From: Colwellia sp. D2M02
GTDB lineage: Bacteria > Pseudomonadota > Gammaproteobacteria > Enterobacterales > Alteromonadaceae
Direction: 5' to 3'
Assembly: GCF_018860755.1 (NCBI RefSeq)
Contig: NZ_JAHKPW010000064.1
Location: forward strand, 89,096 to 139,737
Length of the DNA: 50,642 nt
Both the position numbers and the translations under genes were made by a program. The notes under the pieces are model-generated. The model saw only the letters and a list, made by a program, of their open reading frames with translations. It was not told where the DNA came from and did not search any database. Positions 39,819 through 50,642 of the stretch are shown here, in pieces (positions within the stretch are counted from its first letter, which is position 1; every line of letters begins with the position of its first letter).

Positions 39819-42170
39819 CTAATGCGCATTTATAGTTTCTTCATCTAATGTTGCTTGAAAATTATCTTGTAACGCAATAACAACAGGATCTTCTTTTAAT
39901 AATGCTTTGGCATAATCATAGCGTTTATCATTAATATGAGATTGTATTTGAAAAGGATCAGCAACAGTGCTTTCAACAATCGTTAACGTAACGGTAATTG
40001 GCCGAGATAAAAATTCACTAATAGAGGATTGAAGCTGCTGCTGTGCTACTTCGGTATTTAAGTGACTTGTTGCCTGATCTAATAAAAGAATTAAACTATC
40101 ATCCGTTGATTCATCACTAATGGTTGCATGAATCGCTAATTGACGAATACGCGCAGTAAGCTGCATTGAGTCTATCATATGCGCCCATTTATCCACTTGA
40201 TTTGCTTTACGCACAACGGCGGGATCTATACTTTCAGGTTGATATGGCGCTTCTGGCTCAGGAATAGCAACACTTGGTTTAGTCGCTGAATTTTCAGCAG
40301 AGTTACTTTCTGTCGCATTACTCTGCTTTGGGTCTGTTATCTGACGCTCTTTCGCGCCATCAGACTTTTTTTCCTGACTCTCCAACTGCTTTTTTCGACT
40401 ACGTAACATATTTCGAGTCGCTAACACTGAGCTTATTGGACTGTCAGCTAGCGTGTCCGAAATAGCAGGAATTACGTTTTGGGGAGTTATTGCTTCGCTC
40501 GTTGCTGAGGCTGGCAACTCAACTGACTCATTGTCAAGCTGTGGTTGATGAAATTCGCTGTTATCTTCACTCTGTCTTTCGCCAACAGTTGACTTATAAG
40601 AAGTACTATTAGATAAAGAGTCGCTTGCACTAGGAACTTCAGTTGTCGCACCTGCTACTGAATCATCAAAAGGCAAAGCTGTATCTTGTAAAGGCGCTCT
40701 CGGTGCATGACTGGTAGTGTTACTTTCATTTTGTTGCTGTTGAGCTTGTGTTTCAATCGCTAGCATTTCGGCCGCAAGAGTTTGTGCCGCCTCGTGTTTA
40801 TCTTCGTTTATATTTTCACTGGTATCTTTACCTAACTCACTTACGTTGTTAGTAATATTTCTAGCCGCTAGCTCATCATTGGTTTTAGCATCAGTAATCG
40901 CCGTATAATTTTGTGGCGTAGCGTCGTTAATAACGCCGCTATTGAGGTTTTCATTATCAAACTCATTAGCTTGAGTCTCAGATAAAGTAGTTGATGACAG
41001 CATTGCTTCATTAAAGTGAGCTTCACTATTGGCACTATTATCACTAACCGCATCTTGAATAACATTATTTTTTAATTCATTACGCTGCATTGGCTTAAAT
41101 GCTAACAAGCGTAATAGTGTCATATCAAAAGCTGCCTGCTCATCAGCAGCATAAGGTAAATCTTTGCGGCCGTTAACACATATTTGATAATATAACTGCA
41201 CATCTTCTGCTGACATTGCTTGACTGAATTTTTTCAATAGGGAATGCTGCTCTATAGACAAGGTAAAACTTTTTTCGACTACTTGCATTAACGCTATTTG
41301 GTGAAAAAGTTGAATTAACTCAGCAAATAATCGGTTATAACTTGGTGCATAAGCTGCAATTTCTTGAGAAAGCGCCATTAACCCTTGGCTGTCTTGCTTT
41401 AACAAGTGAATAACAATATTAAATATCCAATTTTGGTCAATATCACCCAGCATTTGCTGAATATTAGCTAAGGTTATATTGCCCTGCCCTTGCGCAATGG
41501 CTTGATCTGTTAAACTTAAAGAGTCGCGCATACTACCGCGTGCCGCTTTAGCCAATAAGGTTAAACTGCCAGCTTCATGAGCGACTTCTTCATATTTTAA
41601 AATTTCTGTTAATTTCGTTTCTATTTGAGCAACATTAAGTGCTTTTAAATGAAACTGTAAACACCGAGATAATACGGTTATTGGCAGTTTTTGTGGATCT
41701 GTGGTCGCTAAAATAAATTTAACATGTTCCGGCGGCTCTTCTAATGTTTTCAATAACGCATTAAAACTGTGCCTAGAAAGCATATGTACTTCATCAATCA
41801 GATAAACTTTATAGCGTCCTCGCGTTGGGGCGTACTGAACGTTATCTAATATTTCACGAGTATCATCAACTTTCGTTTTTGACGCGGCATCAATTTCAAG
41901 TAAATCAATAAAGCGACCTTGATCGATATCTACACAAGCATCACATTTTCCACAAGGCTTGTCTGTTACCCCAATATCACAATTCAAGCTTTTCGCAAAA
42001 ATACGAGCAATAGTGGTTTTACCCACACCACGTGTGCCTGTAAAAAGGTAGGCGTGGTGCAAACGCTGCTGAGATAAAGCATTTGCGAGCACAGTAACAA
42101 CATGCTCTTGTCCCATTAACTCTTGAAAATTTTTAGGACGCCATTTTCTCGCCAGTACTTGATAACTCAT
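39819..42170 (-). CDS. dnaX: DNA polymerase III subunits gamma and tau (DnaX)
   Basis: A 783-residue clamp-loader ATPase. Domain I/II (1-240) has Walker A GTRGVGKT (45-52), zinc ligands Cys64, Cys73, Cys76 and Cys79, YLIDEVHMLS (Walker B) and ATTDPQKLPITVLSRC (SRC motif). Domain III spans about 240-370. A long disordered acidic/Ser-rich linker (about 375-640) precedes tau domains IV-V, which bind DnaB helicase and the alpha subunit. The linker holds two A-AAA-AAG heptamers at codons 592-594 and 600-602 leading to a shared -1 stop at 40362-40360, so a 603-residue gamma form is expected. The linker is much longer than in E. coli (643 residues total). Confidence 0.96.
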   Translation of the reverse strand: MSYQVLARKWRPKNFQELMGQEHVVTVLANALSQQRLHHAYLFTGTRGVGKTTIARIFAKSLNCDIGVTDKPCGKCDACVDIDQGRFIDLLEIDAASKTKVDDTREILDNVQYAPTRGRYKVYLIDEVHMLSRHSFNALLKTLEEPPEHVKFILATTDPQKLPITVLSRCLQFHLKALNVAQIETKLTEILKYEEVAHEAGSLTLLAKAARGSMRDSLSLTDQAIAQGQGNITLANIQQMLGDIDQNWIFNIVIHLLKQDSQGLMALSQEIAAYAPSYNRLFAELIQLFHQIALMQVVEKSFTLSIEQHSLLKKFSQAMSAEDVQLYYQICVNGRKDLPYAADEQAAFDMTLLRLLAFKPMQRNELKNNVIQDAVSDNSANSEAHFNEAMLSSTTLSETQANEFDNENLNSGVINDATPQNYTAITDAKTNDELAARNITNNVSELGKDTSENINEDKHEAAQTLAAEMLAIETQAQQQQNESNTTSHAPRAPLQDTALPFDDSVAGATTEVPSASDSLSNSTSYKSTVGERQSEDNSEFHQPQLDNESVELPASATSEAITPQNVIPAISDTLADSPISSVLATRNMLRSRKKQLESQEKKSDGAKERQITDPKQSNATESNSAENSATKPSVAIPEPEAPYQPESIDPAVVRKANQVDKWAHMIDSMQLTARIRQLAIHATISDESTDDSLILLLDQATSHLNTEVAQQQLQSSISEFLSRPITVTLTIVESTVADPFQIQSHINDKRYDYAKALLKEDPVVIALQDNFQATLDEETINAH
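40360..40397 (-). promoter_or_regulatory. programmed -1 ribosomal frameshift site in dnaX
   Basis: Codons CGA-AAA-AAG (592-594) and GAA-AAA-AAG (600-602) each contain the slippery heptamer A-AAA-AAG in the frame used by E. coli dnaX. A -1 slip at the second site adds Val and then meets TGA (40362-40360); a slip at the first site reaches the same stop nine codons later. GGAGAG lies upstream of the second site, like the stimulatory Shine-Dalgarno of E. coli. CTGATG...GCGTCAG downstream can form a weak stem. Confidence 0.75.
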
Positions 42171-42234
42171 AATTGTCTTCTTGAATGCTCGATAAATGTA
42201 AAGAGGTTAACCAAATGATTTTCTAAATATTTTA

Positions 42235-42780
42235 CTATTCACCTGCATATTGAATCAGTGAAAATATTTCAAGTCCCATTGCAGTTAAACGATCTTCACC
42301 ACCTAAATCAGGCAGTGATATCACAAAACCTGCGTGAGCCACTTTAGCGCCAACGCGTCGTATCAGTTTAGTGGTTGCTTCAATAGTACCGCCAGTTGCT
42401 AATAAGTCATCAATTATTAATACCTTATCATCACTCGTTAGTGCATTTTGATGAATCTCTAAAATATCTTCGCCATATTCAAGTTGATAAGGTTGAGAGT
42501 AAGTTTCTCGTGGTAATTTTCCTGGTTTGCGAACGGGTACAAACCCTATACCTAATGCTAATGCTAAAGGTGCACCAAATAAAAAGCCTCTAGCTTCAGT
42601 ACCTACAACTTTTGTAAACCCTTGATCTTTATATTTATCAGTTAACAACTGCATAGTCAGCGCAAAAGCTTGCGCATCCTCAAGTAAGCTCGTCACATCT
42701 CGAAATAAAATGCCCTTTTTAGGGTAATCAGGAATGGTTAAAATAGATTGAGTTAACTGTGCAAGTTGTAAGTCATTCAT
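42235..42780 (-). CDS. apt: adenine phosphoribosyltransferase
   Basis: A 181-residue purine salvage enzyme forming AMP from adenine and PRPP. It has [57 protein letters not shown] and the PRPP motif [17 protein letters not shown]. Length equals the E. coli protein. It is 64 bp upstream of dnaX on the same strand, an order conserved in gammaproteobacteria (apt-dnaX-ybaB-recR). Confidence 0.97.
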
Positions 42781-42935: not shown

Positions 42936-43607
42936 TTACTTAAGCTTTAATATTTTTCGATTATTTTTATTGGGCTCAGTTGTTGAATTTGTAGACACCT
43001 TAGGGTTTTTATAAATGGTACTAGCATTAGGCCTAGCCCCCTCTACAAAGGGCTCATTCGGCTTTTTCTTAGTAAACTTCTTATGTTCAACCTTTTGGCT
43101 AGCTTTGCTTCCACCCTCTACAGGTTTTTGCTGTATTTTTTCTGTTCTCGCTACATGATATTTTTTATCAATTGCATTTAAAAAGTTACGAATTACCTGA
43201 TCTTTACATTCACGATAATGTTTATGGTCAACCTTACGCGCAAAAGCGCTTAATTCAGGCTTACTTAGCCTAAAGTCGACAGTGTTTAGTAACTCAATAA
43301 TATCTTCTGCTTGAAGGTTTAACGCTATTTTTAGTTTAGTTAAAATAATATTATTAGTAACTCGCTTTTCTGGCGCTATTTGAGGACCAGGCTTTTTACC
43401 ACGCCTATCATTAATAAAACCATTTAAAAAAATAGCCAGTTCGGTATCACTACAACGAACAAAATCGCTATCATTATCTTTCTTTAACCATTGGCTAATG
43501 TGCTCACGGGTAACCGTATGCTCAGCTAACGCAAAAATCTCCACCATTTTTTTGTTATTAAAATTAAAGGTGTAGCGGATGCGTCGTAAAATATCATTAT
43601 TAGTCAA
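42936..43607 (-). CDS. yehS: DUF1456 family protein, YehS-like, with basic tail
   Basis: A 223-residue protein with two tandem DUF1456 repeats: TNNDILRRIRYTFNFNNKKMVEIFAL (1-) and TNNIILTKLKIALNLQAEDIIELL (about 83-). The open frame extends to 43676, but E. coli YehS begins MLSNDILRSVRY, which aligns with a TTG start at 43607, and the promoter at 43631-43649 excludes longer starts. The C-terminal 60 residues are Lys/Asn-rich, disordered and unlike E. coli (KHKKFTKKKPNEP...). Function is unknown. It is a separate gene upstream of apt. Confidence 0.8.
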   Translation of the reverse strand: MTNNDILRRIRYTFNFNNKKMVEIFALAEHTVTREHISQWLKKDNDSDFVRCSDTELAIFLNGFINDRRGKKPGPQIAPEKRVTNNIILTKLKIALNLQAEDIIELLNTVDFRLSKPELSAFARKVDHKHYRECKDQVIRNFLNAIDKKYHVARTEKIQQKPVEGGSKASQKVEHKKFTKKKPNEPFVEGARPNASTIYKNPKVSTNSTTEPNKNNRKILKLK

Positions 43608-43630
43608 GGGGTTGTCCAAACAAAAAAGTG

Positions 43631-43649
43631 AGGTGTATATTATACACCT
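43631..43649 (-). promoter_or_regulatory. 19-bp perfect palindrome containing the yehS -10 box
   Basis: AGGTGTATATTATACACCT has exact 9-bp arms around one base. On the minus strand it includes TATAAT (43644-43639), a consensus -10, so the likely start of transcription is near 43632. A repressor could block the promoter here. A CRP-like TGTGA-N6-TAACA (43667-43652) lies just upstream but is badly placed for activation. Confidence 0.55.
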
Positions 43650-43846
43650 TTTGTTAATGAGCTCACACTTTTCCAATGTAATTACTGTCTTTAAATCCTT
43701 CAGCTACATAGCTTCGTATACTGGGCGTGTTAAAAACAGAAGTTATTGAATTAAGTCATTATCAAATAGGGTTTAACTATTAAATAAAAAGAATTTTTTG
43801 TACTATACGTGCTTACCACTTATATAAGGTTAGCGGGATAGAACCG

Positions 43847-44401
43847 ATGAATAAAAATATGAACTCTATAACATTTAATCATTCAAGATTAGCTAGTTAT
43901 GCAACAATAATTGCCGCCACATTCCTTACAGGTTGTGTTAATCAAAATAAACTTGCCGAGCAAACGTTAGCGCCTATCTCCAATCCATGTCAAAAAATAA
44001 CGATGCTAGCTAATGCTTATAAAACTAACTTTGAAACATTAAAGCAAAGTGAAGTGAAATCAAGAGCAAGCAATATTTGGCAGGCTAAATATCACTTAGT
44101 TGGTAACAACTGTAAAATATGGTCGTTTGGTGCGAATAATGCGACCTATTCATGCAACACCATTGAAGTTGAACAGCAATCTGCACAAAAATACTATCAA
44201 AACGCTAAAGAGACTATTCAGCAGTGTTTAGGCGATGATTGGCGTTTAACAGAGAGTAAACGCAATCACGATGATGGTTTAAAGGCTGAGTATGTTAATG
44301 AAATTAACGATCTAACTATTTCAACACACTTAGTACCAAGTACGGGCGTCTTTAAGTCTAAATGGTCTGTTTATTATTACATTGGTAATGTTGATCGCTA
44401 G
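43847..44401 (+). CDS. predicted lipoprotein of unknown function
   Basis: A 184-residue lipoprotein. The lipobox TFLTGC puts the acylated Cys at about residue 30 after the hydrophobic stretch YATIIAATFLTG. The mature protein has several Cys (NPCQKITM, NNCKIWSFG, TYSCNTI, QQCLGDDW) that could form two disulphides. It ends DLTISTHLVPSTGVFKSKWSVYYYIGNVDR. A charged stretch ESKRNHDDGLKAEYVNE lies in the middle. No family recognised. It is convergent with the Cys-rich repeat protein gene and has its own terminator. Confidence 0.7.
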   Translation: MNKNMNSITFNHSRLASYATIIAATFLTGCVNQNKLAEQTLAPISNPCQKITMLANAYKTNFETLKQSEVKSRASNIWQAKYHLVGNNCKIWSFGANNATYSCNTIEVEQQSAQKYYQNAKETIQQCLGDDWRLTESKRNHDDGLKAEYVNEINDLTISTHLVPSTGVFKSKWSVYYYIGNVDR

Positions 44402-44460: not shown

Positions 44461-44494
44461 ATTGATTAAATTTCACCCATTAAATACTTTGGTA

Positions 44495-44983
44495 TTATTC
44501 ACCACACTTTTTATCTTTTTTGCTGGCGTCTTTCATTTTGCCTTCGCCGCATTTACCTTCACCACATTTGCCCTTTTTTGCAACATCTTTCATTTTGCCT
44601 TCGCCACACTTACCTTTTTTTGCAGCATCTTTCATTTTGCCTTCGCCGCACTTACCTTCACCACATTTACCTTTTTTTGCAGCATCTTTCATTTTGCCTT
44701 CACCGCATTTACCTTCACCACATTTACCTTTTTTTGCAGCATCTTTCATTTTGCCTTCGCCGCATTTACCTTCACCACATTTTCCTTTTTTTGCAGCATC
44801 TTTCATTTTGCCTTCGCCACATTTACCTTCGCCACACTTGCTTGTATCATTACTAGCAACTACAGTAGCTAACTCCTTAGATGAAAAGGGGTTAACCTCT
44901 GCTTGTGCCGTTATACTCGTAAAGCATGCCATTACTAATAACGAAGCAGTAAGCAATAATGTTGATTTTTTAATTATATTCAT
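44495..44983 (-). CDS. HvfA/bufferin-like Cys-rich repeat peptide
   Basis: A 162-residue exported protein. The signal peptide MNIIKKSTLLLTASLLVMACF...AQA is followed by a 20-residue linker and then a low-complexity array of 114 residues. The unit is KCGEGKCGEGKMKDAAKKG (19 residues), present four times in identical form, then a shortened unit (14 residues), then one variant unit and a terminal KKCGE. The mature part has 12 Cys and five EGKCG pentapeptides. EGKCG is the motif modified to oxazolone/thioamide in HvfA and bufferins, copper-binding RiPPs (established for those families). Neither the MNIO (DUF692) enzyme nor its partner protein is encoded in this window. AAGGA precedes the ATG. Confidence 0.8.
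   Translation of the reverse strand: MNIIKKSTLLLTASLLVMACFTSITAQAEVNPFSSKELATVVASNDTSKCGEGKCGEGKMKDAAKKGKCGEGKCGEGKMKDAAKKGKCGEGKCGEGKMKDAAKKGKCGEGKCGEGKMKDAAKKGKCGEGKMKDVAKKGKCGEGKCGEGKMKDASKKDKKCGE
44498..44839 (-). repeat. 57-bp tandem repeat array inside the HvfA-like gene
   Basis: The coding region repeats with a period of 57 bp (19 codons), with one unit shortened by 15 bp. The units are very similar at DNA level, so recent duplication or slippage is likely. All three plus-strand frames stay open through it, which produces false antisense ORFs. Confidence 0.85.
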
Positions 44984-45162
44984 GCGTATTCCTTAATAAT
45001 TACTGTATTTATCTCTCTGTCGGTAGTGAGATAGTCTTAGTATATAAAAAGACCTCTATATTCACCTAAAAATTTCACTATTATTTGGATATTTTTTGCC
45101 GCACTTCATAAGAAAATATTACGATTGATACTGCTCAAGAGAAATAGCAAAAAGTAGACATA

Positions 45163-45218: not shown

Positions 45219-46502
45219 CTAGATTGAAACATTTTTTCGTTTAGCTGCATCAACTATATAAGTTTTCCAACCCTGTGCATATTTACGAGAGCTAGGATCT
45301 TTTATCGCTTTTTGAATAGCAGTATAAGCTTTCTTATAATCTTCAAGGTAATAATAACATTCTGCAATGCTCATATGAATTTTCCCTTGATCATCAATAT
45401 TAAGATCTAATGCTTTATTCAATGCGGAAACTGCTTTAGTAAATTGCTCATCCTGCTTTAACAACATACCTTGCTTGCGATAGTGTTTTGCTTCACTGGT
45501 CATTTTAGCCAGTTCACCATAATACTTTGCTGCTTTATCAATATGTTGTGCAGAATGCCAAGCATTAGCTAAAGACGATAGATTTTGATCATCACGCTTA
45601 ACTAAACCTGAAGCAATATGCTTTTCTAGTAAAAGAGCTGCTTTATAAGGCACTTCTAACTGGCTATATAAGCTAGCGAGGGTCTTAATTTGCGATTCTT
45701 TATCTAAAAACCCTTTCTTGTAAGCCATTTCAAGCGTGTAAGCCCCTTTTTTATAATCTTCTATTAATAAATAGAACATTGGGAGCTGTGTCCACCACTG
45801 CTTATTTTCAGGGAAAAGCTGAATTACTGTTTCTAAAGTTTTAACTGCATCTTTATATTTTTTACGCTCGTAATACGACGTAACTTTTAAAATATAAGGG
45901 TTTTGGTTAGGTTTATCACCAAATGCAGCAATAGCTTTATCAGCAGGCTCAATAATTTTGTCAAGCTGCTTCATTTCATAATGAGCTTGAGCAATTTTAA
46001 CAAATGTTGGGCCGTCGCTTTTACCAGTAAATTCCATCCAAGCATAATAGTTCGCTAAAGCACTTTTAAAATCTTTTATCTGCATTTGTAAGTCAGCTAA
46101 AAGCTTTAACGCTTCACCGTGATCAACTTCACTTAAAATATCGGGTTCAACCGCTAATTTAAGATATTTAATCGCGTTTTCTTCATTGTCGCCAATTGTT
46201 GCATACATAACGGCAATAAATCGTGAAACATAGGCTTTATCAAACGTTTTACTTGCATCAATTTCAAGCAGAACAGCTAATGCACCTTGAAGATCAGACT
46301 CAATGCCTTCTTCTTCATTACCTGCATATAGTTCAAAAGCTTTTTGTACTTTTTTACCAATATTTGGGCCAACAAGATGCGTAGGACGCTTTTTCTTCTC
46401 TTCTGCACCGACACCGGCGGCGACAGCGTAATCAGAAAAAGGAACCTGCACTACAAGCAAAGATGTTGCTACCACTAAAGAAGTAGATAATTTTTTCAAC
46501 AT
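45219..46502 (-). CDS. tetratricopeptide-repeat periplasmic protein of TonB2 cluster
   Basis: A 427-residue protein. The signal peptide MLKKLSTSLVVATSLLVVQVPFSDYAVA is followed by helical TPR pairs over most of the length (for example DFKSALANYYAWMEF, KYKDAVKTLETVIQLFPEN, EQFTKAVSALNKALDLN, DYKKAYTAIQKAIKDP). TPR proteins of this type end TonB2-type operons in Vibrio and Alteromonadales and are thought to help the complex. Its ATG overlaps the tonB stop as TAATG. Its terminator follows at 45163. Confidence 0.85.
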   Translation of the reverse strand: MLKKLSTSLVVATSLLVVQVPFSDYAVAAGVGAEEKKKRPTHLVGPNIGKKVQKAFELYAGNEEEGIESDLQGALAVLLEIDASKTFDKAYVSRFIAVMYATIGDNEENAIKYLKLAVEPDILSEVDHGEALKLLADLQMQIKDFKSALANYYAWMEFTGKSDGPTFVKIAQAHYEMKQLDKIIEPADKAIAAFGDKPNQNPYILKVTSYYERKKYKDAVKTLETVIQLFPENKQWWTQLPMFYLLIEDYKKGAYTLEMAYKKGFLDKESQIKTLASLYSQLEVPYKAALLLEKHIASGLVKRDDQNLSSLANAWHSAQHIDKAAKYYGELAKMTSEAKHYRKQGMLLKQDEQFTKAVSALNKALDLNIDDQGKIHMSIAECYYYLEDYKKAYTAIQKAIKDPSSRKYAQGWKTYIVDAAKRKNVSI

Positions 46503-47116
46503 TACTCACCTCCCATAGAGAAATCAAGTTGTACAGTTAGCCCAGGTTGTTTCATAGCTTTGCCATCAACAACTTTAGGTTTATATTTCCACTTTCTTAA
46601 TGCGCGTTTAGCTTCTTTATCGAAAACACGCTTCGGCTCAGCTTCAATTACTTCAACATCTTCAACGCCACCAATTTCGTTAATGGTAAAAGAAAGAATT
46701 ACATAACCTTCTTTACCATCACGCGCTGCTTGAATTGGGTACTTAGGCTCAATTCGAACAATTGGTGTTGCATCGCCATCACGGCCCATACCTGCACCTG
46801 GTGCTGATAAGCCTGTTGAAGCACCTGCAAGTTGAACACCTGGCATATTAAAGTTTAAGCCACTGGTATTGTTACTAGCTTCAGGCTCAGGAGCCTGCTG
46901 CTTAGGTGGAGCTTTAGGCGGCGGAGGCGGCGGCGGCGGTACACGTCGACGCTGCTCTGCTGCAGACTTTGGCGGCGTAGTATTAACTTCTACTATTATA
47001 TTCTCTTGTTGCTCTTCCTTGTTTCGATCACCTGATGAAACAAGGAAAGCCATAAAAGCAAATAAGCCAAAGGTAACTGCCGCGCCTAGTAGTATTGATA
47101 CTAAAAAGCGAACCAT
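46502..47116 (-). CDS. tonB: energy transducer TonB, TonB2-type
   Basis: A 204-residue TonB. It has an N-terminal inner-membrane helix (about 5-27), a short Pro-rich section VPPPPPPPPKAPPKQQAPEPE, a Gly-rich linker and the C-terminal TonB domain (about 110-204: PIVRIEPKYPIQAARDGKEGYVILSFTINEIGGVEDVEVIEAEPKRVFDKEAKRALRKWKYKP). It transfers energy from the ExbB/ExbD proton complex to outer-membrane receptors. The short Pro-rich linker is typical of TonB2. Its stop is fused to the TPR start. It is 4 bp after exbD. Confidence 0.95.
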   Translation of the reverse strand: MVRFLVSILLGAAVTFGLFAFMAFLVSSGDRNKEEQQENIIVEVNTTPPKSAAEQRRRVPPPPPPPPKAPPKQQAPEPEASNNTSGLNFNMPGVQLAGASTGLSAPGAGMGRDGDATPIVRIEPKYPIQAARDGKEGYVILSFTINEIGGVEDVEVIEAEPKRVFDKEAKRALRKWKYKPKVVDGKAMKQPGLTVQLDFSMGGE

Positions 47117-47120
47117 ATAT

Positions 47121-47522
47121 CTACCCCTTTGCAGCCGCGATAGAAATTCGGTCTATGCCAGCCTCTTTAATTGCATCCATTACTTTAACAACGATGCCGT
47201 GTTTTGCATCTTTATCAGCTTGGATAATAACAACATCGGTTGGTTGTTCAGCAAGTAATTTTTCAATCCTTGCTCCAACACGTTCGATATCAACTGGGCC
47301 TTTATCTAACCAAATTTCGCCGCTATCTTTAATTGCAATAAAGATGTTAGCATTTTTTTGCTTAGACTGATTTGCCGCTTTCGGTTTATTAACTTCAATA
47401 CCAGCTTCTTTTACAAATGAAGTGGTTACAATGAAGAAGATCAGCATGATGAATACGATATCTAGCATCGGTGTCATATCAATTGCTGCTTCTTCGTCCT
47501 CACGAATACGTTTACGTGCCAT
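47121..47522 (-). CDS. exbD: biopolymer transport protein ExbD
   Basis: A 133-residue inner-membrane protein with a short cytoplasmic start, one helix (about 17-38) and a periplasmic domain. The motif AIDMTPMLDIVFIMLIFFIVTTSF includes the conserved Asp22 used for proton flow. It works with ExbB and TonB. It lies 12 bp after exbB and 4 bp before tonB. Confidence 0.96.
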   Translation of the reverse strand: MARKRIREDEEAAIDMTPMLDIVFIMLIFFIVTTSFVKEAGIEVNKPKAANQSKQKNANIFIAIKDSGEIWLDKGPVDIERVGARIEKLLAEQPTDVVIIQADKDAKHGIVVKVMDAIKEAGIDRISIAAAKG

Positions 47523-47534
47523 GAATATATCTCT

Positions 47535-48059
47535 CTAGTGATGAGGTAAACTGTCAACCAGTTTAGCCTTTGCTAGTTTAACTTTAGCGTCTAATCTTGA
47601 ACTAAAGAACACGCCTGATAATGCTGCAACCATACCCGCCATTGTCGGAATTGTTGCTTGCGATATACCAGCGGCCATTAGACGCGGATTACCTGTACCT
47701 TGTTGAGCCATGACTTCAAATACGCCAATCATACCTGTTACTGTTCCCAGTAAGCCGATAAGAGGACACATTGCCACTAAGGTTCTAATGGTAATCATAC
47801 GCTTTTCAAGTAACTCGTCTGCTTCGGAGATCCAAGTCTCTCTAATTCGATGTGCATACCAAGATGTAGTATCTTGACGTGCATCCCAGCGAGAAATGAT
47901 ATCATCTCTCATCTTAGGGTAGACTGATGCTAAGAACCAATAACGTTCTATCATCATAATCCACATCAATAAGAGTGCAAAGGCAACAACATAAAGTACG
48001 TTACCACCTGTCGCAATAAAACCCCTGACAGATTCCCAAAGCTCTATCAGGAATAACAT
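47535..48059 (-). CDS. exbB: MotA/TolQ/ExbB proton channel family protein (ExbB)
   Basis: A 174-residue three-helix inner-membrane protein. It has an N-terminal helix (about 20-43), the RYWFLASVYPKMRDDIISRW cytoplasmic part and the conserved CPLIGLLGTVTGMIGVFEVMAQQGTGNPRLMAAGISQATIPTMAGMVAALSGVFF segment. With ExbD it forms the proton-driven motor. Its ATG overlaps the preceding stop by TAATG. Confidence 0.95.
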   Translation of the reverse strand: MLFLIELWESVRGFIATGGNVLYVVAFALLLMWIMMIERYWFLASVYPKMRDDIISRWDARQDTTSWYAHRIRETWISEADELLEKRMITIRTLVAMCPLIGLLGTVTGMIGVFEVMAQQGTGNPRLMAAGISQATIPTMAGMVAALSGVFFSSRLDAKVKLAKAKLVDSLPHH

Positions 48060-49408
48060 TATTTAGACCCCTTCTCTGCGATAGCAGCGATTAAACCAGC
48101 GCTTTGCTCATCTAGTTTTTGTAGAACTGATTTACTCTTACCAGCTACAATTGAGTGGATAAGGATAAGTGGTAATGCACAAATTAGACCTAATGCAGTT
48201 GTTACAAGTGCAAGAGAGATGTTACCAGCCATAATTTTCGGGTCACCTGTACCAAATAATGTAATCGTTTGGAACGTCATGATCATACCGATAACTGTAC
48301 CTAGTAGACCCATTAGAGGTGCAATAGCCGCGAACATTTTGATTAAGTTAACACCACGGTCAACTTTAGGTGTTTCACGTAAAATAGCTTCATCAAGTTT
48401 CAGCTCTAATGTTTCAGCATCTGCCGACTGATTGTCGTAGAAAACTTTAAGTAAACGACCTAGAGGGTTGTTTTCATTAGGCTTATCAAGGTTTTTCTCT
48501 TGTGCTTTAATTTTAGCACTCATGCCGCCAAGAACAATTAAACGCTCAAGAGCAATTAAACAACCAATGATTAATAATACTGTGATTGCATAACCAACTT
48601 CTTTACCTTCATGGAAGAATTCTTCAAGCGTTTTCTTACGCGTTTCAAGTGATAAAATACCACCACGTGAAGGGTCAACGTATACTGCTGTATAACCTGA
48701 AGAGGTATTAAAGAAATTTGATGCTGTTTCAGAAATATAACCAGCTGGCTGCTTAGGTAACGGCTGAACTTGGCCAACTTCATCGTTATAAGTTAAGTAA
48801 CCATTAGATGATACTAAGTTAAACGCACCAATACGTGTAATGGTTTCAGTTGATTTAGAGCCGTCTAAGTTAGTTACGCTAGAGCTGAATTGAGAGATTT
48901 TACCTGATTCTGTCATTTCAGTTTGTAATGCAAACCATAACTCTTCAAGATCTTCTAAAGCGGGAATAGCTTTCGAGTTAGCGATACGGTTAAGGTCAGA
49001 GCCACGATCTGGGAACTCAGCACTTACAATTGAAGTAGTGATTTGACCAAATGCATTAGCTGCTGCTGCACGAGAAACACCGAACATTTCACCTAAAGTA
49101 CCCGTAGCATTATCAAGTTCAACTACTTTTTGCGATATTGTAATATCATTCGCTGCATATTCTTTAGTTAAACGTTTGTTACGTGCATTTTCGTTAGCTA
49201 GATCTTTTTTAGCTGTAGCTAAAAGCGATTGCTTGTCGGCGCGTTCTGATAAAAACTCAGCTTCACGTTTTTTATCAAGTTTAGCTTCTGATACGCGATC
49301 TGCTTTTACTTGCTTTAATAACGCATCTAATTCATTAGCATGCGATGTAGAAACCATGCCAGCAGTCATTGATGCAGCTAGCAATACAAAATTAATAACT
49401 TTTTTCAT
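48059..49408 (-). CDS. ttpC: TtpC-type MotA/TolQ/ExbB proton channel protein with periplasmic domain
   Basis: A 449-residue protein in which an ExbB-like domain (about 255-430; KVDRGVNLIKMFAAIAPLMGLLGTVIGMIMTFQTITLFGTGDPKIMAGNISLALVTTALGLICALPLILIHS) is preceded by a signal peptide (residues 1-24) and a large, coiled-coil-bearing periplasmic region with no counterpart in ExbB. This is the form of TtpC, needed for TonB2 transport in Vibrio (established). It starts by TAATG overlap with the DUF3450 stop. Two ExbB-like proteins in one operon are characteristic. Confidence 0.92.
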   Translation of the reverse strand: MKKVINFVLLAASMTAGMVSTSHANELDALLKQVKADRVSEAKLDKKREAEFLSERADKQSLLATAKKDLANENARNKRLTKEYAANDITISQKVVELDNATGTLGEMFGVSRAAAANAFGQITTSIVSAEFPDRGSDLNRIANSKAIPALEDLEELWFALQTEMTESGKISQFSSSVTNLDGSKSTETITRIGAFNLVSSNGYLTYNDEVGQVQPLPKQPAGYISETASNFFNTSSGYTAVYVDPSRGGILSLETRKKTLEEFFHEGKEVGYAITVLLIIGCLIALERLIVLGGMSAKIKAQEKNLDKPNENNPLGRLLKVFYDNQSADAETLELKLDEAILRETPKVDRGVNLIKMFAAIAPLMGLLGTVIGMIMTFQTITLFGTGDPKIMAGNISLALVTTALGLICALPLILIHSIVAGKSKSVLQKLDEQSAGLIAAIAEKGSK

Positions 49409-50187
49409 TATTTGGCTCCTGCTGCAAATACTGGTAATTTAGTTAAGTCCATAGGTAGTTGCTTACGGGCCATACGAATAGCGTCTGTGATAGGTTTTAA
49501 GTATTCATCACCTAACTCTTCCCATGCACGTGTTTCGTTGTTCCATAACCAAGAATGTTTTGCATCAAGTGATTGTGCAATTAGGGCAATACGTCCCATA
49601 TGTACGAAATCAGCAGTTAATGTACGACCACCTAAATCAATTTCGCCTTGGTATGCATCAAATATAGTACCGTAACCAGCTTCAATTTCATAAGCTTCAA
49701 GTACTAAACGGAATTGCTCAGAAACAGTTACGTTTGAGTCATCCATAATTGCACGTAAATTTTCAACACGCTCTTTACGACGTTCAATGTTCATAGGAAC
49801 ATCTAATTCGATGAACTTATCTAACGAGTCAATCATTTTGTACATTAACGGTACAACGCCTTGCTTGATTTTATCAATGCCGTTAATTTGCTTTTGCAAA
49901 GAAGCGATATTAGCTTTTTGGCCATCAACCATACGTTGAACATGGTCGTTATAACCACGAAGTACGTCTGCTTCATCAACAGTATTACGATACTCAGCAA
50001 GAAGGTCTTGCGTTTGTTCGTAGATGCTATTGATTTTTGCTTGTGATTTAGCTGACTGTTTAAAGTTTTGAGCTTCAGCTTTATGAAGATCTGTTAATGC
50101 ATCTGCTGCGGCGATATTGCTACCAGCTAACGCTAGTGCACCAACCATCGCTGTAGCGATGAGGCTTTTCTTACTTACTTTGGACAT
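49408..50187 (-). CDS. DUF3450 periplasmic protein of TonB2 cluster
   Basis: A 259-residue exported protein, started at ATG 50187 (MSKVSKKSLIATAMVGALALAG); a TTG three codons earlier is less likely. Signal cleavage is near AAA-DALTDLHKAE. The mature protein is strongly helical with a coiled coil (AQNFKQSAKSQAKINSIYEQTQDLLAEYRNTVDEADVLRGYNDHV) and a family C-terminal part with KHSWLWNNETRAWEELGDEY. DUF3450 proteins lead TtpC-ExbB-ExbD-TonB-TPR operons in marine gammaproteobacteria. Its role is unknown, probably structural in the periplasm. Confidence 0.9.
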   Translation of the reverse strand: MSKVSKKSLIATAMVGALALAGSNIAAADALTDLHKAEAQNFKQSAKSQAKINSIYEQTQDLLAEYRNTVDEADVLRGYNDHVQRMVDGQKANIASLQKQINGIDKIKQGVVPLMYKMIDSLDKFIELDVPMNIERRKERVENLRAIMDDSNVTVSEQFRLVLEAYEIEAGYGTIFDAYQGEIDLGGRTLTADFVHMGRIALIAQSLDAKHSWLWNNETRAWEELGDEYLKPITDAIRMARKQLPMDLTKLPVFAAGAK

Positions 50188-50642
50188 AGTTCCCAACCAT
50201 TGCTATTTTAATTTTGATAATTTATTCAAACAAATAATTTGTTAAAACGTTAATTACCGCAAATATAAAAGTCTGTCGTTTTTAAATGTAACTTTTTATG
50301 AATACAACCTAGCAATAATCCCAAATGACAGCGGTGCTGTCAAGGCGAGACTTTAAAAGATAAAGTTATTCTTTTACTGCTAACGTACTTCTTAAATACA
50401 AAAACGTATCGTTTTGCTAACAAAATTACTCATTCTATTTCTGATACAATGAGAGACATAAATTTTGCCGTAGTCTGTTTTACTAACATCTTCGTAGTAT
50501 GTCAAATTTATTTACGATAAATATACCTTAATACACTAAGAAAATTTTTACAGCGTAATATTTATACTAGGGGCTGTTGATCTTTAGCGGTTAGATTTTG
50601 TTCAAGGTAAAAGTGTTTTAATTGCGGCGGACAGTGTGTTGC
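50188..50642. other. 455-bp gene-free right edge
   Basis: I see no convincing gene here. The first 150 bp must hold the promoter of the TonB2 operon (minus strand), but no convincing box stands out. The last 70 bp (from GGGGCTGTTGATCTTT at 50571) differ in style and may be the end of a repeated or mobile element cut by the window edge. AAAACG-TAT-CGTTTT (about 50400-50415) is a small hairpin. Confidence 0.3.

Follow-up and report, generated by a model that had tools for sequence, protein, structure and literature searches.

The gene at positions 44495..44983 (minus strand) of the window, the 50,642-nucleotide stretch of the Colwellia sp. D2M02 genome analyzed here, encodes an orphan HvfA-like (type O) peptide of 162 amino acids, identified from the ORF list with an ATG start and by profile search. 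This peptide is probably the in-place descendant of an hvfA precursor, exported and left unmodified, which would serve as a thiol buffer for metals or oxidants in an envelope-stress regulon together with HvfX. For the lineage as a whole, covering at least 15 genera, we are inclined to see a RiPP precursor that has reverted to an ordinary, unmodified multi-thiol metal buffer, with its sigma control and HvfX kept. A single in-place loss of the maturase, after which the precursor was retained, regulated and selected, is well supported by sequence comparison. It is likely that the peptide is unmodified, and by analogy we infer that copper may be buffered by its free thiols, with HvfX as a partner.

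The repetitive, cysteine-rich nature of the peptide, as described in the earlier note, is borne out by TRF and by translation. TRF places the array at 44594..44836 (minus strand), with a unit of 57 bp (19 residues), 4.3 copies, a match of 94% and a score of 430, and five KCGEGKCGEGKMKDA[AS]KK units begin at residues 48, 67, 86, 105 and 138 (0-based). A putative signal peptide of 28 residues (44900..44983, minus strand; ITAQA-EV) was assigned by eye. Past residue 28, 12 cysteines are present, and the peptide contains 12 KCG and five EGKCG motifs. Its kinship to HvfA, whose family members an iron enzyme ordinarily modifies for copper binding, was rightly recognized. The NCBIfam model NF050137 (KCGExKCG_twice) matches with an E-value of 1.8e-24 and 85.1 bits against a cut-off of 19.5, and the HvfA equivalog NF050188 matches below its cut-off (66.5 bits vs 95), which discriminates poorly here, being passed by only 1 of 196 family genomes in a six-frame search. 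A Pfam search of the peptide with E<=1 returned no families, neither DUF2282 nor any Pfam metallothionein. The peptide thereby differs from the bufferin BufA1 (DUF2282), which is likewise a secreted Cys-rich peptide family and of which the window's genome has one BufA1-type copy beside an MNIO. On the plus strand (44462-44996), long antisense ORFs traverse the array as a by-product of the repeat.

As the earlier note stated, the gene stands alone, with a lipoprotein-like gene (by eye; 43847..44401, plus strand) on one side and a TonB2 operon (45219..50196, minus strand; TPR by Pfam) on the other. The members of this operon are named by eye, and we take them to be TonB, ExbD, two ExbB/MotA-like proteins and DUF3450. 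Beyond the lipoprotein-like gene, which adjoins the peptide in only part of Colwellia, lie a DUF1456 gene (42936..43676, minus strand), found in Colwellia between the peptide and apt, and the genes at 39819..42780 (minus strand), presumably apt and dnaX, also named by eye. All 34 Colwellia peptide loci have the TonB2 operon on one side, with the peptide behind the operon, and DUF1456 follows the peptide in 33 of them, the remaining locus stopping at a contig end. Among the 38 orphans of other genera, the TonB side was found in 17, apt-dnaX only in 7 and neither within the stretch taken in 14, so that 58 of the 72 orphan loci share at least one flank.

Nor are these neighbors wholly unrelated to the peptide: the TonB2 operon and apt-dnaX also flank canonical hvfABC operons. 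In 20 canonical hvfA-hvfB-hvfC loci taken from 69, apt is located at +2.3-3.1 kb in 17, 11 of which also have the TonB side upstream, and the three loci read fully have the order hvfA, MNIO, a partner of 247-298 aa, apt and dnaX. By gene order, the canonical operons of related genera sit where the orphan does, with the TonB2 operon on one side and apt-dnaX on the other. Because the site is shared, the orphan is regarded as an hvfA without hvfB and hvfC. A canonical operon would have lost hvfB (the MNIO) and hvfC (the partner) in place, long ago, while hvfA stayed. A tblastn search with the HvfB- and HvfC-like proteins of three canonical loci against loci L158-L237 gave no remnant at E<=1e-3. 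For 79 loci (L158-L237 minus L181), tblastn confirmed that no MNIO is adjacent; for three genomes (G095, G153 and G172), this was judged from the listed MNIO matches.

The genome of the window (Colwellia; 4.01 Mb, 92 contigs, estimated completeness 100%) holds a single MNIO, on contig C8, with a DUF2282 precursor and a DoxX gene beside it. The DUF2063 search, made in this genome alone, gave one match over the cut-off, which adjoins the MNIO. The genome-wide check proposed in the earlier note has therefore produced one bufferin-type MNIO-DUF2063 pair, and no second EGKCG locus besides the peptide's own was found across the genome. This DUF2282-MNIO-DUF2063-DoxX operon is the basis for a different reading, in which BufB/BufC continue to modify the peptide in trans. 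Modification in trans has been raised as a possibility (PMC12452194), and KCGEGKCG is kept in the orphan repeats. The MNIO, however, is a BufB by its score of 310 bits, which just equals the cut-off, and falls short of HvfB (195.8 vs 360).

The distribution of MNIO also speaks against this reading. The peptide is encoded in 34 of 39 Colwellia genomes, none of which has an adjacent MNIO. No MNIO over the cut-off was found in 19 of these 34 genomes when matches up to E 10 were considered; sub-cut-off matches in two of the 19 (E 0.40 and 0.43) lie in long unrelated frames. Twelve of the 19 genomes are 99-100% complete, one (G109) is a single contig, and the lowest two are at 76% and 87%. In all, MNIO is missing from 37 of the 72 orphan genomes. 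Trans modification as a general rule was set aside on the grounds of the 19 Colwellia genomes. The other 15, including the window's own, have an MNIO at another place, and in the window's genome modification in trans therefore still has to be reckoned with. Taken with the leader evidence below, we regard it as rather improbable. Two fates were first offered for the peptide, modification in trans and service as an unmodified metal buffer; the 19 MNIO-less genomes and the absence of the leader motif favor the latter. An MNIO could also have been replaced by another enzyme.

At the family level, 146 of the 196 genomes carry the repeat domain and 145 an MNIO; both are found in 117, while 29 have the repeat without MNIO, 28 have MNIO without the repeat and 22 have neither. 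Of the 125 genomes with a listed repeat position, 69 have an MNIO no more than 3 kb away, 32 have one elsewhere and 24 have none; 22 of the 146 repeat-domain genomes, having no listed position, were left unclassified, and G048 was added from the six-frame search. The class "elsewhere" was first judged among the MNIO matches listed. Linkage to MNIO is taken as the older state since it is spread outside the group, in named records and in PMC12452194.

Two features of the precursor separate the orphans from the others. The comparison covers 136 precursors, 57 of them MNIO-adjacent (from 69 such genomes, 12 being left out), 42 with MNIO elsewhere and 37 from MNIO-less genomes; the contig-end second precursors of G051 and G089 (L325 and L326, motif present) are outside the counts. 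A leader motif [LM]xx[GA][YF], defined after viewing the sequences, precedes the first repeat in 57/57 MNIO-adjacent precursors, 55 by regular expression and two by eye (G136 and G045, where a start codon placed too far downstream had hidden the motif from the expression). It is present in 7/42 precursors with MNIO elsewhere and in 0/37 from MNIO-less genomes. None of the 72 orphans has it, the window peptide included; the regular-expression match in L167 (G199) lies in the signal peptide. Seven precursors that carry the motif yet have no adjacent MNIO are counterexamples to the link. Six precursors (L200, L206, L212, L214, L215 and L216) show a canonical leader, with the listed MNIO on a different contig or at a distance of 58 kb to ~0.43 Mb, and these are possible cases of true trans modification. 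Beyond Colwellia, 6 of 7 MNIO-flanked loci in named records have the motif, the exception being L374; in L367 the motif is present and no MNIO was found within 1.6 kb downstream. L374 comes from a metagenome-assembled genome labeled Klebsiella pneumoniae, a label that may be wrong, and has an hvf-type operon with the leader GSF in place of GY.

The second feature is the residue preceding the first Cys in the KCGEGKCG pair, which is Lys in 261 of 323 pairs in the 72 orphans and Glu in 357 of 358 in the 64 others. The Lys signature is alike in orphans without MNIO and with MNIO elsewhere (Lys in 134 and 127 pairs, respectively, out of 323 in all), which, like the absent leader motif, argues against trans modification. 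Modification is compatible with the repeats taken by themselves: FonBC accepts Ala in position 1, and Glu6, where Ala impairs modification, is kept by the orphans (PMC13097082). In the same source, double Arg at position 1 fails, and the variant set of section 12 reports no Lys variant. HvfA without its signal sequence is described as hardly modified (PMC13419390).

In a tree of the leaders, a single branch separates the 72 orphans from 61 of the 64 others (SH-aLRT 98, from few columns; L215, L069 and L344 omitted). A midpoint-rooted tree of six flanking proteins from 76 loci groups 58 orphans in one clade (SH-aLRT 100), with one change. In the loci compared, the orphan lineage, which spans 15 genera, is thus one clade by these trees, and consequently the loss of the leader and the loss of the enzymes count as one historical association and not as many. 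Following the loss of the enzymes, the leader motif would have been lost, and in most EGKCGEGKCG pairs Lys would have replaced the first Glu.

For the peptide gene, pN/pS ranges from 0.05 to 0.30 in 17 pairs, hand-picked among near relatives; the five pairs with MNIO in neither genome give 0.30, 0.09, 0.06, 0.07 and 0.19, and the window peptide's own repeat units give 0.065, figures that may be lowered by exchange between repeat units. Judged from these ratios, purifying selection on the gene persists, also in genomes without a detected MNIO. Loss of expression or function has been offered as one reading of rare orphans (PMC12452194), and the peptide could accordingly be a functionless relic kept by chance. 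Given the pN/pS values, the spread over 15 genera and a promoter conserved in 69 of 72 orphans, this is very improbable, and in this clade selection and the conserved promoter contradict the reading of orphan EGKCG precursors as having ceased to function.

That promoter is of the ECF-sigma type, TGAAA-N18-GGTC(T), at 45050..45077 (minus strand), with 66 nt from its end to the ATG. The pattern [TC]GAAA-N18-GGTC occurs upstream of 69/72 orphans and 51/64 other precursors, against letter-shuffle expectations of 0.07 and 0.13. A spacing of 17 gives one match in the orphans and four in the others, and spacings of 16, 19 and 20 give none; the orphans without the spacing-18 promoter are G038, G220 and G034. 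Across the window's genome the pattern is not enriched (11 matches vs 8 in a reversed control). An ECF sigma gene of the PRK12517 type (G000:C11:11954 in the window's genome; loci L285/L295) is present in 39/39 Colwellia genomes, and the same element precedes it in 27/30 Colwellia loci, with no other spacing of 14-23. The sequences suggest that the sigma gene mRNA may be leaderless and autoregulated. Behind the sigma gene of the window's genome is a DUF3379 gene, a term found in no paper among the matches listed. The element of the sigma gene itself is located 9 nt from the ATG in 24/30 loci.

The HvfX (DoxX) gene of the window's genome also stands alone (G000:C3) and exceeds the cut-off of NF050144 (200.6 bits vs 80). 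HvfX is present in 35/39 Colwellia genomes and in 17/19 of the peptide-bearing MNIO-less ones, G199 being counted on a 49% match only. The strict GGTC element precedes hvfX in 1 of 30 loci, that of the window's genome. A relaxed element, GAAA-N18-G[GT]TC, was picked after inspection and then tested by spacing: spacing 18 is found in 29/30 loci, spacing 15 in one and the rest of 12-24 in none. Of the 29 matches, 28 have GTTC as the -10 part, and GGTC occurs only in the window's genome. For this reason, a sigma factor common to the peptide and hvfX promoters is likely rather than proven.

ECF sigma factors are known to control MNIO-type operons with a DoxX gene. Caulobacter sigma-F does so (PMC3511200), and H. 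influenzae RpoE2 controls, under HOCl, a DoxX/DUF2063/UPF0276 operon, which we read as hvf, together with methionine sulfoxide repair (PMC7907618). In contrast to these regulons, the Colwellia sigma, accompanied by a DUF3379 gene, is of the PRK12517 type, and no MNIO goes with the peptide. The H. influenzae regulon, together with the Lys/Met spacers, is consistent with a role of the peptide as a sacrificial thiol/Met/Lys sink for oxidants in HOCl-type stress instead of a metal buffer. A third promoter copy in the window's genome (L327 1137-4139, contig G000:C49) heads a thioredoxin-like gene and points the same way, although this link was examined in one genome. Against the sink, the KCGEGKCG spacing is kept as in copper-binding relatives, and many orphans have Met-free spacers (KAK), making this role unlikely on present evidence. 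Behind the thioredoxin-like gene are gluconate-dehydrogenase-subunit-3-like and GMC-oxidoreductase-like genes (both by eye); an assignment of MsrP at this place was wrong.

That the peptide works unmodified is suggested by the fact that the enzyme genes are gone while the peptide, the stress promoter and the partner gene are kept. The peptide would be exported by Sec and would not be converted to thiooxazoles. Its 12 free cysteines and Lys/Met spacers would form a periplasmic thiol buffer for copper, other soft metals or oxidants, belonging to an envelope-stress regulon under the ECF sigma. HvfX might load the unmodified peptide or keep it reduced. HvfX is here separated from MNIO chemistry and, if the reversion is true, would act on an unmodified peptide. 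The lineage would then serve as a natural experiment on the contribution of the thiooxazole, and [LM]xx[GA][YF] is a candidate recognition motif for the MNIO partner.

Orphan EGKCG precursors as such are already known (PMC12452194). Table 3 of that source counts 67 EGKCG genomes without MNIO among 2583, and some stand-alone precursor genes are described as single-gene units whose meaning is left open. The present peptides resemble these stand-alone Buf_EGKCG genes in lying away from MNIO, some in MNIO-less genomes, and differ from those rare cases in that they form a single lineage marked by a defined change in the leader, by selection and by a regulon. With HvfA/oxazolin, Buf_EGKCG and the captophorins (fontiphorin and gonophorin), which are accompanied by HvfB-HvfC, they share the NPF leader and the KCGEGKCG repeats, and with canonical HvfA-family operons the chromosomal site and promoter type. 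Unlike HvfA with HvfB-HvfC, they have no hvfB/hvfC and no [LM]xx[GA][YF], and mostly carry Lys for the first-Cys Glu. Searches on orphan or stand-alone precursors and MNIO gave no description of this lineage among the matches listed, and nothing related was found for Colwellia and MNIO. Caution is needed with annotation, as NF050137 labels such proteins "oxazolone/thioamide-modified" even in genomes without a detected MNIO.

The MNIO loci of Colwellia have other partners. Of the 33 loci over the cut-off, that of the window's genome and 26 others were examined, and no EGKCG gene was found beside any of them. Twenty of the 26 adjoin a 4-Cys precursor, DUF2282-like by eye, and no precursor was found by script beside the other six (L099-L104). 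In the three of these that were read further (L099, L100 and L104), the MNIO adjoins a 13-Cys lipoprotein-like precursor with a repeated CYGVNKCNGHNDCK, perhaps of the Buf2 type.
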